A DNA stretch of 64,000 nucleotides, taken from the NCBI GenBank assembly GCA_029194535.1, contig JARFXR010000001.1:1000721-1064720 (forward strand), in the 5' to 3' direction. The translations under genes were made by a program, and so were the position numbers. Position 1 is the first letter of the stretch. Every line of letters begins with the position of its first letter. This DNA is from Nitrospira sp. (GTDB lineage Bacteria; Nitrospirota; Nitrospiria; Nitrospirales; Nitrospiraceae). The notes beneath the pieces were generated by a model that saw only the letters and a list, made by a program, of their open reading frames with translations, was not told the DNA's origin and made no database searches. Positions 20,529 to 26,692 of the stretch are shown here, one piece after another.

Positions 20529-21539
20529 ATGGAAGAGTTGGCGACAGCAAGCAGACATGCGGAGCCCAGGCGGAGCCAAGGGTTGAGTAAGCTGATCGAT
20601 CCGATTCGGATTCGGCCGGGAGCGTCGGGAAAGCTGATCGTGCAGCTTCCGTATTCTCCCGACTATGTGGCGAAGATCAAGACGATGGCCGGTCGAGGGT
20701 GGCACCAGGGCGAGAAGTATTGGACAGTTCCGCATACCGGCACCGTGCTTCGCCATCTGCTGGCCCTCTTTCTGGGAGAGTCAGTCGAGATCGATCCAGC
20801 GGTTCGCGCAGTGAATGGTACGCGTTACGGAGCGAGCCTACTGTCAGTGGGTCAAGCGCTTCATGCGCTTTCATGGTCCGCGGCCCTTGGCCGACATGGG
20901 CGAACCGGAAATCGGCCCGTTCCTCTCAGGCTTGGCGACGGCGTCTCATGTCGGCGCCTCAACACAAAACCAAGCCCTCAACTCAAGGACGTCGATCCAG
21001 CACACAACCAGATCGTCGTGCGAGGGGGCAAGGGCGACAAGGATCGCTACACCACGCTCCCTATGGCCATCAAAGCGCCACTTGTTCAGCATCTCAACGC
21101 AGTCAGACGGCAACATGAGGAAGATCTTCGGCAAGGCCTTGGTCGCGTCGTGCTTCCTCACGCGCTTGACCGCAAATACCCCAACGCAGGCAAGGAATGG
21201 GGCTGGCAGTGGGTGTTCCCGGCATCGAGCCATTACATTGCTCCACTGACAAGAGAGTAACGCCGTCACCATCTTCACGAATCAGTCATGCAAAAGACGG
21301 TGAGGGAGGCACGACTGAAGGCTGGGATCGTCAAGCCAGCGAGCTGCCACACGCTGCGGCATTCGTTCGCCACTCACCTGCTGGAAGACGGATATGCCAT
21401 CCGGACAGTTCAGGAATTGCTGGGTCACACCGACGCGCGAACGACCATGATCTACACCCATGTCCTGAATCGGGGCGGAAAAGGAGTCCGGAGCCCAGCC
21501 GATGGGCTGGTCCAAGGGTTGGGTCCCTCGCAGCGATAA
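20529..21539 (+). pseudogene. Integron-type tyrosine recombinase (IntI-like), inactivated
   Basis: Three frame-disrupted blocks together resemble an integron integrase with an N-terminal arm domain (IRIRPGASGKLIVQLPYSP...EKYWTVPHTGTVLRHLL). Near 20811 the frame shifts, and the core-binding domain continues as TERAYCQWVKRFMRFHGPRP...HVGASTQNQALN. Near 20985 about 65 residues are missing, including the first catalytic Arg. The frame then returns with LKDVDPAHNQIVVRGGKG...KYPNAGKEWGWQWVFPASS, the IntI-specific insertion. An in-frame TAA at 21258 precedes [42 protein letters not shown] and GKGVRSP, which hold the HxxR, second His and Tyr. Shift, internal deletion and stop make it dead. It points the same way as the cassettes that follow. 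Confidence 0.88.
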
Positions 21540-23001: not shown

Positions 23002-23295
23002 ATGCCTTTCAAGATTACGATCACGGATGACGCCGATCGTCAGTACCAATCGTTGCCAGTGCGCGAGCAGCGAATCCTGGAGGCCGCAATCCAGTCCCGT
23101 CTGGAGCACGAACCGACCAAGCCGACGAAAGCGATCAAGCGTTTGCGTCCGAATCCACTCGCGGAATTCGAGCTGCGGGCGGGCGACCTGCGAGCCCTGT
23201 ATAATGTCGAAGGTGACGAAGTCGTTATTCTGATCGTCGGCCGTAAGATGGGCAACAAACTGATTGTGGAGGGGGAGGAGTTCCATGGCCATTAA
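23002..23295 (+). CDS. RelE/ParE-superfamily toxin, cassette 3
   Basis: 97 residues. FKITITDDADRQYQSLPVRE opens the fold, AIKRLRPNPLAEFELRAGDLRALYNV follows, and the last strand is EVVILIVGRKMGNKLIVEG. This is the compact RelE/ParE layout with the basic, substrate-positioning strand (ELRAGDLRALY). Such toxins cleave mRNA on the ribosome or inhibit gyrase; which applies here is not visible. It precedes and overlaps its presumed antitoxin by 11 bases, the reverse of the usual order. Type II pairs are typical stabilising cargo in integrons. Confidence 0.82.
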   Translation: MPFKITITDDADRQYQSLPVREQRILEAAIQSRLEHEPTKPTKAIKRLRPNPLAEFELRAGDLRALYNVEGDEVVILIVGRKMGNKLIVEGEEFHGH

Positions 23296-23551
23296 GACAA
23301 TCCCGTTGAGCCGCTTGGAAGCGGACCTCAAAAAGACGCTGAATGAGTGCGCTGAGTCTGGCGAGACTGTTGTGGTCGAGATGCCGGATCAACGGCTCTT
23401 AGCAATCCAAACGCTGGAGCCGCAGGAAGACGACACGTTGATAGATGAGTTGCTGGCGTCCAATCCGAAGTTTCAAGCGTTAGTAAAGAAATCAAAGGCC
23501 AGCCTGCGCAAACCGTTTGCTGCGGGGAAGCCGGGGCTAACCAACGGCTGA
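23285..23551 (+). CDS. Antitoxin of the cassette 3 pair
   Basis: 88 residues from the ATG at 23285, which lies inside the toxin's last codons with GGAGGGGGAGGA just upstream. The first part (AIKTIPLSRLEADLKKTLNECAESGETVVVEMP) resembles the DNA-binding N terminus of Phd/YefM-type antitoxins, and the acidic second half would wrap the toxin. Its stop codon lies inside attC 3, so the last residues (KPGLTNG) are encoded by the recombination site. The family label is inference from position and pattern. Confidence 0.75.
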   Translation: MAIKTIPLSRLEADLKKTLNECAESGETVVVEMPDQRLLAIQTLEPQEDDTLIDELLASNPKFQALVKKSKASLRKPFAAGKPGLTNG

Positions 23552-23635
23552 AGCTGACCGGGGCCGGCATCCTGGTTTTGCAAGCATCAGTGTTGTTGCA
23601 GGCGACCCCGGCAGCTTAGCCGAACGTTAGGTGCC
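23533..23635 (+). other. attC site 3 (end of cassette 3)
   Basis: R'' core GGCTAAC (23535-23541) and R' core GTTAGGT (23626-23632). The stem is excellent: CGGCT-g-AAGCTG-a-CCGGGG pairs with CCCCGG-CAGCTT-AGCCG, with two unpaired bases as in attC 1. The outer arm GGGGCTAAC exactly complements GTTAGCCCC at 22779-22787, the 5' edge of this cassette. The loop is longer than in site 1 (about 45 bases). Confidence 0.88.
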
Positions 23636-23638
23636 AGG

Positions 23639-23930
23639 ATGAAATCTGGAAGATCGAAGCTTCGCCGAAGCCTTGAAGCGATCCTTCAATCCACATCCGA
23701 TGTTCTCTTTCCGCAGCATTTGGGGGGCGGAACAAAGGGGTCGGGAGTCTTTTCTCGACGGCCCGTGAGCCTTTAAGACTCCCGACCCCTTTTCGTCCGC
23801 GCTTGATGGCTATCAACGGAGCCAGGAATCAATCACGCTCCGATCGCTTCAGGGTCTGGGTATCAAACCGGTCGGCTTTCGACAACTCTCTGCAGAGGTC
23901 GAGCAGTGCGCCAAGCAAGCCTCAGCCTAA
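23639..23930 (+). pseudogene. Small cassette 4 ORF interrupted by a palindromic element
   Basis: An ATG at 23639 (after CAGG) opens a frame MKSGRSKLRRSLEAILQST...LFPQH that runs straight into the palindromic element at 23722 and ends on its TAA at 23774. After the element an open stretch DGYQRSQESITLRSLQGLG...VEQCAKQASA ends at 23928-23930, right at attC 4. Removing about 70-76 bp would join both halves into one frame of some 70-75 codons. I do not recognise the family. The frame prediction depends on the exact ends of the inserted element. Confidence 0.55.
23722..23798 (+). mobile_element. 77-bp palindromic element, copy 1 (REP/MITE-like)
   Basis: Perfect 18-bp inverted arms AAAGGGGTCGGGAGTCTT (23734-23751) and its complement (23775-23792) enclose a 23-base loop. 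A copy with only two differences over 77 bp lies 890 bp away at 24612-24688. Non-autonomous palindromes of this look are often mobilised by REP-associated tyrosine transposases; no such transposase gene is in the window. The element interrupts the cassette 4 ORF and gives it the tail GGGTKGSGVFSRRPVSL before a stop. Confidence 0.82.
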
Positions 23931-23988
23931 CACTTCACTCAACCGGATGCCGCCGAGGCACGCCACTTCGCTCGCCCTGTTAGCCGGC
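23924..23988 (+). other. attC site 4 (end of cassette 4), degenerate
   Basis: R'' core GCCTAAC (23925-23931) and R' core GTTAGCC (23979-23985) are in the right order and spacing (61 bp overall). The internal arms pair poorly, so the site is either eroded or a non-standard fold. The R'' GCCTAAC agrees with the first bases of the cassette's own 5' edge (GTTAGG at 23626). Confidence 0.6.
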
Positions 23989-24075
23989 ACACCTTACCGT
24001 GAAGCGGGCATATTTGCGGTGAAGAGTACCGCGTGGTCCGCGGAACATTGCCGTAAAAAAGTGTGGAGGCTGTAA

Positions 24076-24666
24076 GTGCAAACTCAGAGCAGCGTAGACC
24101 TTAGACGAAAGGTCCAGCACCTTCGAGACATGTTGATCCAATGGGCGACTAATCAAATTACCACCCAATCGGAAAGGGGTGTGAAAGCCAAATTCCGAAC
24201 AGAATACAAAGCGCTGCGCCAAGACATTATCGACAACTCGGACGCCGACATCTACCACGCTCTGCCTGAGGCAGTCCGTTTGTACTTAGACATCTCAGAT
24301 TTCTGGGGCTACGTAAAAAAGAAGCTTCCTCACACCGCGAGGGAACGAACCAATTTCCTCCATAAAGAGTTCAAGCCGGTTCTCCTGCGACTGGATCGTC
24401 CAGCGGGAAAGCTCATTGATCCGGTCCCTGAGTTTGCGCCACTCGCATTTGACGACAAGATGAAGGAGATACTCAATCGCCGATGGCGAGAATGCCAAGT
24501 CTGTGCTCAGGCGGGTGCACATCTCGCGGCGATCGTCATGATGGGTGGATTGCTTGAGAACTTGTTCGTGGCACGACAAGGGGCATTGAAGGACAAGACC
24601 TCGCTCATTGCGGGGGGGGGAACAAAGGGGTCGGGAGTCTTTTCTCGACGGCCGGTGAGCCTTTAA
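24076..24666 (+). pseudogene. Unknown protein, cassette 5, truncated by the palindromic element
   Basis: A GTG at 24076 with GGAGG upstream opens 178 plausible residues: a basic, helical, probably coiled N-terminal part (SSVDLRRKVQHLRDMLIQW), a middle LPEAVRLYLDISDFWGYVKKKLPHTARERTNFLHKEF, and AHLAAIVMMGGLLENLFVARQGALKDKTSLIA. It then enters the palindromic element and ends with the same 17-residue tail as the cassette 4 ORF. The first 178 residues look genuine; the original C terminus (perhaps ending near 24750) has been displaced. I do not recognise the family. The product may still be made in truncated form. Confidence 0.65.
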
Positions 24667-24688
24667 GACTCCCGACCCCTTTTCGTCC
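24612..24688 (+). mobile_element. 77-bp palindromic element, copy 2 (REP/MITE-like)
   Basis: Same element as at 23722-23798, with arms at 24624-24641 and 24665-24682. It interrupts the cassette 5 ORF. Near identity to the first copy implies recent duplication or transposition within the cassette array. Confidence 0.82.
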
Positions 24689-24781
24689 ACCTGTTGTTGT
24701 CCGCGAGCGAGCGCGTTCCAAAGTTTCGAGCGGCAAGGATCGCGGGCTGAATGACCAGCCCGCCAGATCCCGGTCGGCATG

Positions 24782-24842
24782 GCGAGCTAACAACCGATCG
24801 CAGCGGATGGCGCTTCGCCGCCGTTGAATCGGGACGTGAGGA
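24782..24842 (+). other. attC site 5 (end of cassette 5), R' core mutated
   Basis: R'' core AGCTAAC (24785-24791) is followed by a stem CCGAT-c-GCAGCGG-a-TGGCG that pairs with GCCgCCGTTGaATCGG, allowing one G-T pair, and then ACGTGAGG where ACGTTAGG would be expected. Total length is about 60 bp, the classical attC size. The mutated R' core should block recombination at this joint. Confidence 0.65.
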
Positions 24843-26383: not shown

Positions 26384-26692
26384 CGAAAAAGCAGTTCCAG
26401 AATCATTGGTTGTCCTCATGCGAGTGAGCGGTGCACCTGCTGCCCCACTTTGACACGTCCTCACTGGAGGAACGGGGACCTGCCGAGGCATGGCCAGCGT
26501 GGATCATTGATGAGGCTTCGGTAGGAATAACAGGGACATTCTGAATTTCCGGTGACGGCGGCTCATCCTGTGGCAAGAATTCTGAATGTCCCTGTTTCTT
26601 TCCCCTCGGGAATGGATGGAGGTACGGCGGACGCACGATGATCCGGTTGCGATGAGGCGATTCACCCTCACATATCGAAGAGAGGAGAACCC
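26384..26692. other. 309-bp intergenic stretch with a repeat block and a palindrome
   Basis: Between the vapC remnant and the YidB-like gene. It holds the second copy of a ~32-bp block (GGAGGAACGGGGACC..., 26466-26498) and a long palindrome at 26529-26596. No gene is supported. Confidence 0.5.
26529..26596 (+). mobile_element. 68-bp palindrome (second REP/MITE-like type)
   Basis: Exact 13-bp inverted arms AACAGGGACATTC (26529-26541) and GAATGTCCCTGTT (26584-26596), with a second nested pair (TGAATTT / AGAATTCT). The architecture is like the GGGGTCGGG palindromes 2 kb upstream but the sequence differs. Only one copy is present in the window. It could instead be a bidirectional terminator, though neither side ends in a T-run beyond TTTC. 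Confidence 0.6.

Follow-up and report, generated by a model that had tools for sequence, protein, structure and literature searches.

Paired 77-bp palindromes in a Nitrospira cassette array are probably short derivatives of a RAYT-encoding transposon

Introduction

In a 64,000-nucleotide stretch of a Nitrospira genome (the window, referring to the whole of the DNA analysed here), two neighbouring ORFs of an integron cassette array end in the same amino acid sequence, which in both cases is encoded by a copy of one 77-bp palindrome. This raises the question of how the same palindrome came to lie in two adjacent cassettes, and whether the protein tail that it supplies has any meaning. The preliminary description of the locus proposed a mobile palindrome of the REP type, inserted in the same frame into two ORFs, giving both an unusual shared C-terminus and possibly favouring cassettes as its target. 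We examined the window, the 3.98-Mb genome holding it and related genomes. The palindromes are best explained as non-autonomous MITE/REPIN-like copies of a RAYT/TIRYT element of approximately 760 bp, with a common origin and local movement accounting for the pair; we place the probability of this reading at about 0.88.

Results

The paired palindromes

The features of the locus are collected in Table 1. The two-copy claim of the preliminary description was reproduced for positions, palindromic arms, frame and tail. The copies are 97% identical (75 of 77 bases) at an offset of 890 bp, and each is composed of perfect 18-nt inverted arms around a 23-nt spacer. When folded as single-stranded DNA and compared with shuffled sequences, they gave z values of −5.2 (copy 1) and −4.8 (copy 2). 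Both ORFs terminate in GGGTKGSGVFSRRPVSL followed by TAA, read in the same element frame, so that 17 amino acids of each are derived from the palindrome. The element proper likely spans approximately 23729-23798 in copy 1 (GGAACAAAGGGG...CCCCTTTTCGTCC); a left extension, GGGGGG(C/G), is common to the two window copies and absent from other copies. Outside the 77 bp, no sequence common to both copies was found on either side. No empty site was found for either window copy, which counts against the best explanation.

A second, unrelated palindrome was observed at 26518-26600 (AACAGGGACATTCTGAAT...ATTCTGAATGTCCCTGTT, fold z −6.0). Elsewhere in the genome it is represented by one lone arm and by a full hairpin (C1:267502-267565), which lies about 850 bp away from a remnant resembling an integron integrase (C1:268406).

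Table 1. Features of the cassette array around the two palindromes (window coordinates)
Feature	Position	Strand	Remarks
Integron integrase pseudogene	20815..21509	+	Two fragments; profile positions 71-138 missing; in-frame TAA
attC 3 (before copy 1)	23535..23632	+	Structural scan and fold
ORF1, short ORF with element-encoded tail	23639..23776	+	No homologue of the 27 upstream codons in the searched genomes
Palindromic element, copy 1	23722..23798	+	Arms 23734-23751 and 23775-23792
C-terminal remnant of a 200-280 aa family	23799..23930	+	About 43 codons; N-terminal part missing
attC 4 (between the copies)	23925..23985	+	Structural scan with RNA energies
ORF2, truncated family member	24076..24666	+	Last 17 codons from copy 2
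Palindromic element, copy 2	24612..24688	+	Arms 24624-24641 and 24665-24682

The arms of the palindromes bound a RAYT-encoding element

The genome contains two 762-bp elements (C1:759897-760658 and C1:771016-771777) that are 100% identical over their full length and unlike in their outer flanks, and each of them carries, enclosed by the arms known from the window hairpins, a gene for a 224-aa Y1_Tnp/REP_Tyr_transpos protein. The complete identity of these copies points to recent movement, and the element has apparently been active recently. The proposal of a REP-type mobile palindrome, for which a REP-associated tyrosine transposase gene might be present, was thereby borne out. Against the NCBIfam model for REP-associated tyrosine transposases, the protein scored 64.7 bits (E 8e-18); this match is well above chance, yet it lies under the curated cut-off of 80 and counts against the best explanation.

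The terminal arms of the parent element read (GGAT)AAAAGGGGTCGGGAGTC...GACTCCCGACCCCTTTT. Its left arm runs into TTTTCTTGACA, with a −35-like box and TATAAC 17 bp further on, and this end holds a promoter-like arrangement (TTGACA-17 nt-TATAAC); the window hairpins have TTTTCTCGAC at the corresponding place. The hairpins retain the TTTTCT(T/C)GAC portion of the parent left end and then stop matching, which is as expected for internal-deletion derivatives of the parent. The inner right ends differ (ACAAAGACTCC in the parent versus TTTAAGACTCC in the hairpins), so that deletion within the parent copies as they now stand does not simply yield the hairpins, a further point against the best explanation.

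Related copies lie close to each other

Copies of the element were counted by sequence search. The arm AAGGGGTCGGGAGTC has 25 exact occurrences genome-wide, compared with 0 for a reversed control pattern, and the genome holds seven full hairpins (the window pair and five others) in addition to many single arms, forming a dispersed repeat family whose copies are often paired or clustered. Relatives of the RAYT (E below 1e-30) were present in 94 of 296 genomes. At the 30 RAYT loci examined, the left arm was found in 28 cases and both arms in 14. Among named genomes, the left end of the parent was matched exactly in eight Nitrospira/Nitrospiraceae records and one Baikal gammaproteobacterial MAG; a search for plasmid matches returned none.

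The spacers of the window copies are 0.96 identical, and the next best copy reaches 0.78. An inverted sister pair with 0.82 identity lies 1.35 kb apart on contig C3 of the same genome, nearby sister copies in genome G007 (1.00 and 0.96 identity) are located within about 4 kb, and a sister pair in G106 (0.96 identity) is 4.2 kb apart. The copies closest in sequence thus tend to lie closest in the genome, which suggests local hopping rather than a preference for cassettes.

At four loci (L054, L050, L053 and L076), stretches of 11-19 bp that span flank and outer arm are duplicated in tandem, at either end of the element; examples outside the window are AAACAATCAAAGGGGTC and GATCAAAGCAAAGGGGTCG, each present twice. 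These duplications suggest error-prone handling of the element ends and could reveal the cleavage position. Possibly the window copies show the remains of such a duplication (GGGGGCGG before AACAAAGGGGTCGG).

Both cassette genes are broken

Copy 1 had been described as interrupting an ORF whose frame resumes behind it. The plus-strand frame past copy 1 is indeed open, up to a TAA at 23928 within attC 4, but the reading of the two sides as a single interrupted gene was not confirmed. The sequence after the copy corresponds to the last ~40 residues of its family (69% identity to L111 and 56% to L112), and the first 165-235 residues of the family are absent from the 90 bp separating attC 3 and copy 1. 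Comparison of the sequence upstream of copy 1 with the N-terminal parts of the family gave no score beating shuffles, and an N-terminal piece of this family was matched weakly 1.05 Mb away in the genome. The 27 upstream codons of ORF1 had a coding score of −0.14, compared with 0.17-0.40 for other cassette genes. Given the missing residues, and the lack of homology and coding signal upstream, the frame past copy 1 is a remnant and not a resumption.

The homologues of ORF2 (L105-L109, from the same bacterial family and phylum) have open frames of 223-295 aa. They align with ORF2 up to the junction and then extend for 80-100 aa, with a conserved stretch that in the closest homologues includes YRNYIHP, which we take to resemble a HEPN-type motif. 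This continuation is absent genome-wide, the closest homologue matching only the window part upstream of copy 2, and a search with ORF2 for related loci among genome contigs gave no result. Since the homologues do not end in the palindrome-derived tail and continue past a junction beyond which ORF2 lacks the corresponding sequence, ORF2 is truncated and the tail stands in for a conserved region. When the sequence after copy 2 was compared with homologue C-termini, the sole hit was LLLSAS, the six residues that end one ORF2 homologue. This agreement lacks significance (p about 0.19); it would be compatible with an internal deletion at copy 2 and is a point against the best explanation. PADLOC, Pfam and NCBIfam provided no name for either of the two families.

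Neither gene is intact, each lacking sequence next to its element, and simple interruption of a gene that then resumes was not supported. The gene parts may have been lost when the element arrived or by later recombination between hairpins, or the losses may predate its arrival. A broader proposal, that RAYT-driven local hopping would delete adjacent DNA and prune cassettes, regularly leaving truncated or chimeric cassette genes, seems quite unlikely.

The missing gene sequence at both junctions is also what would be left if the pair had come from duplication or rearrangement within the array, through recombination between hairpins and not through transposition, and if this recombination had removed the gene parts. 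The window copies are closest to each other and alone carry the GGGGGG(C/G) extension, in agreement with such an origin. However, a rearranged or duplicated array offers no reason for the absence of common sequence beyond the 77 bp, and tandem duplication leaves the inverted sister pair on C3 unexplained; we regard this origin as unlikely and retain common descent with local movement as the preferred reading.

Transcription signals, cassette preference and the shared tail

The hairpin has a GC-rich 18-bp stem followed by TTTTC, and many REPs are located downstream of genes (PMC3733652), as would suit a role of the palindromes in ending transcription of the cassettes or stabilising their mRNA. 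A terminator scan, in which the permitted loop length is exceeded by these hairpins, nevertheless did not flag them, and no fitting Rfam family was found, the Rfam search giving only sub-threshold chance matches (miRNA-type hairpins at both window copies and, at another place, a serC leader). Such a role is improbable.

A preference for integrons, in which the folded single strands of cassettes would attract the element, was suggested by the fact that one cassette array holds two of the seven genomic hairpins. Our home-made structural scan for attC sites, which recovers attC 2-4 of the window and misses attC 1, detected no attC-like site in the stretches examined around the genome's other hairpins and both parent elements, and local clustering is seen outside integrons as well. 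The integrase of this array is a pseudogene, so that the element would not be expected to interact with IntI at present. The bottom-strand DNA fold of attC 4 was no better than those of shuffles. Cassette preference, as put forward in the preliminary description, is unsupported, and we consider it very improbable.

Two further observations were made in the array. Cassette 3 (23002-23548) contains overlapping small ORFs of 97 and 95 aa in a toxin-antitoxin-like layout, without a Pfam match. A possible decayed attC was recognised by eye after ORF2 (24780-24840, GAGCTAACAACCGATCGCAGCGG...CCGTTGAATCGGGACGTGAGG), with GTGAG instead of GTTAG as the right core; the scan did not flag it.

Further copies of the palindrome were found, and they show no constant insertion frame. 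Most of the 31 distinct hairpins inspected in the genome and its relatives are intergenic, with no coding-like frame leading into them, and the few entered by a frame with a positive score are entered in all three frames, giving tails such as GSGV..., GVGS... and RGRES. Two copies fall into one forward frame with a chance of about 1/3; moreover, the window copies are sisters, so that their shared frame does not represent two independent events. From its sequence, the tail GGGTKGSGVFSRRPVSL-stop is a chance reading of the left arm and spacer in one of the three forward frames. It is a translation into a stop and no functional module, and the reading of the shared C-terminus as something unusual is unsupported. 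Although both window copies yield the identical tail in frame, the notion of a functional C-terminus (e.g., a targeting or degradation signal) with a selected insertion frame is hardly credible and already largely refuted, given these frame data, the lack of homologue and coding signal in the host part of ORF1 and the loss of the conserved C-terminal third of the family from ORF2.

Discussion

The preferred reading, in which the palindromes are non-autonomous copies of the RAYT-encoding element, can be put as a sequence of events, the enzymatic part of which is modelled on known RAYTs and on the Y1 enzymes of IS200/IS605. Internal deletion of a single-strand transposon of about 760 bp would have produced the 77-bp hairpin. 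The RAYT would act on it in trans, the Y1 enzyme recognising the arms as they fold within single-stranded DNA (on the lagging strand, for instance) and moving the hairpin over short distances. One window copy would in this way have seeded the other. The outcome would be the present arrangement, with both copies in an integron that has lost its integrase and inside two damaged cassette genes.

In a phylum that has received little study, the genome clearly combines a RAYT-type element, apparently active in the recent past, with short derivatives of it, and the movement of REP-like hairpins could be modelled on this case. A further lesson is that a mobile palindrome can create, as an artefact of annotation, a striking protein tail shared by neighbouring genes.

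Several known systems resemble the family described here. Rickettsia palindromic elements (RPEs; Ogata et al. 2000, as described in PMC10969869) are short palindromes within ORFs that add an element-coded peptide, as is also seen here. According to that source, RPEs often lie in frame inside proteins thought to remain functional, whereas the genes at our locus are truncated, most copies of the family are intergenic and neither window copy sits in frame within a protein that stayed intact. CGTC REPs are characterised by a CGTC end tag and by having no dedicated flanking transposase. The present family departs from both features, as the window copies end in TTTTCGTCC with a tag that is not conserved elsewhere (TTTTATCC, TTTTCATC, TTTTCTTT), and the RAYT carries the same arms. 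With REPINs and their RAYTs (Bertels and Rainey 2011, PMC3116915; Nunvar et al. 2010, PMC2817692), the family shares two inverted units forming a hairpin, a mostly extragenic location and a RAYT in the same genome. In contrast to GTAG REPs and REPINs, the GTAG (GTRG) at the foot of the hairpin is absent and AACAA/AATAA precedes the stem; the copy number is low (7 hairpins), and the transposase-bearing copies themselves multiply.

A close parallel in organisation is provided by TIRtrons, in which a RAYT-like (TIRYT) gene lies between terminal inverted repeats and which are accompanied by TIR repeat families (Di Nocera et al. 2013, PMC3733652). The TIRs of TIRtrons are not related to GTAG REPs, and many carry GGGGWSAS (PMC3733652), a motif matched by the arm GGGGTCGG at 7 of 8 positions. 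Nitrospira is not mentioned in that work; nevertheless, the Y1/HUH RAYT-like gene is placed here between the same inverted arms, and the repeats are moderately abundant and occur single, paired or clustered. A RAYT-like gene in long inverted repeats, with the same repeats dispersed, corresponds to a TIRtron, and the element family is therefore a new one of a kind already known.
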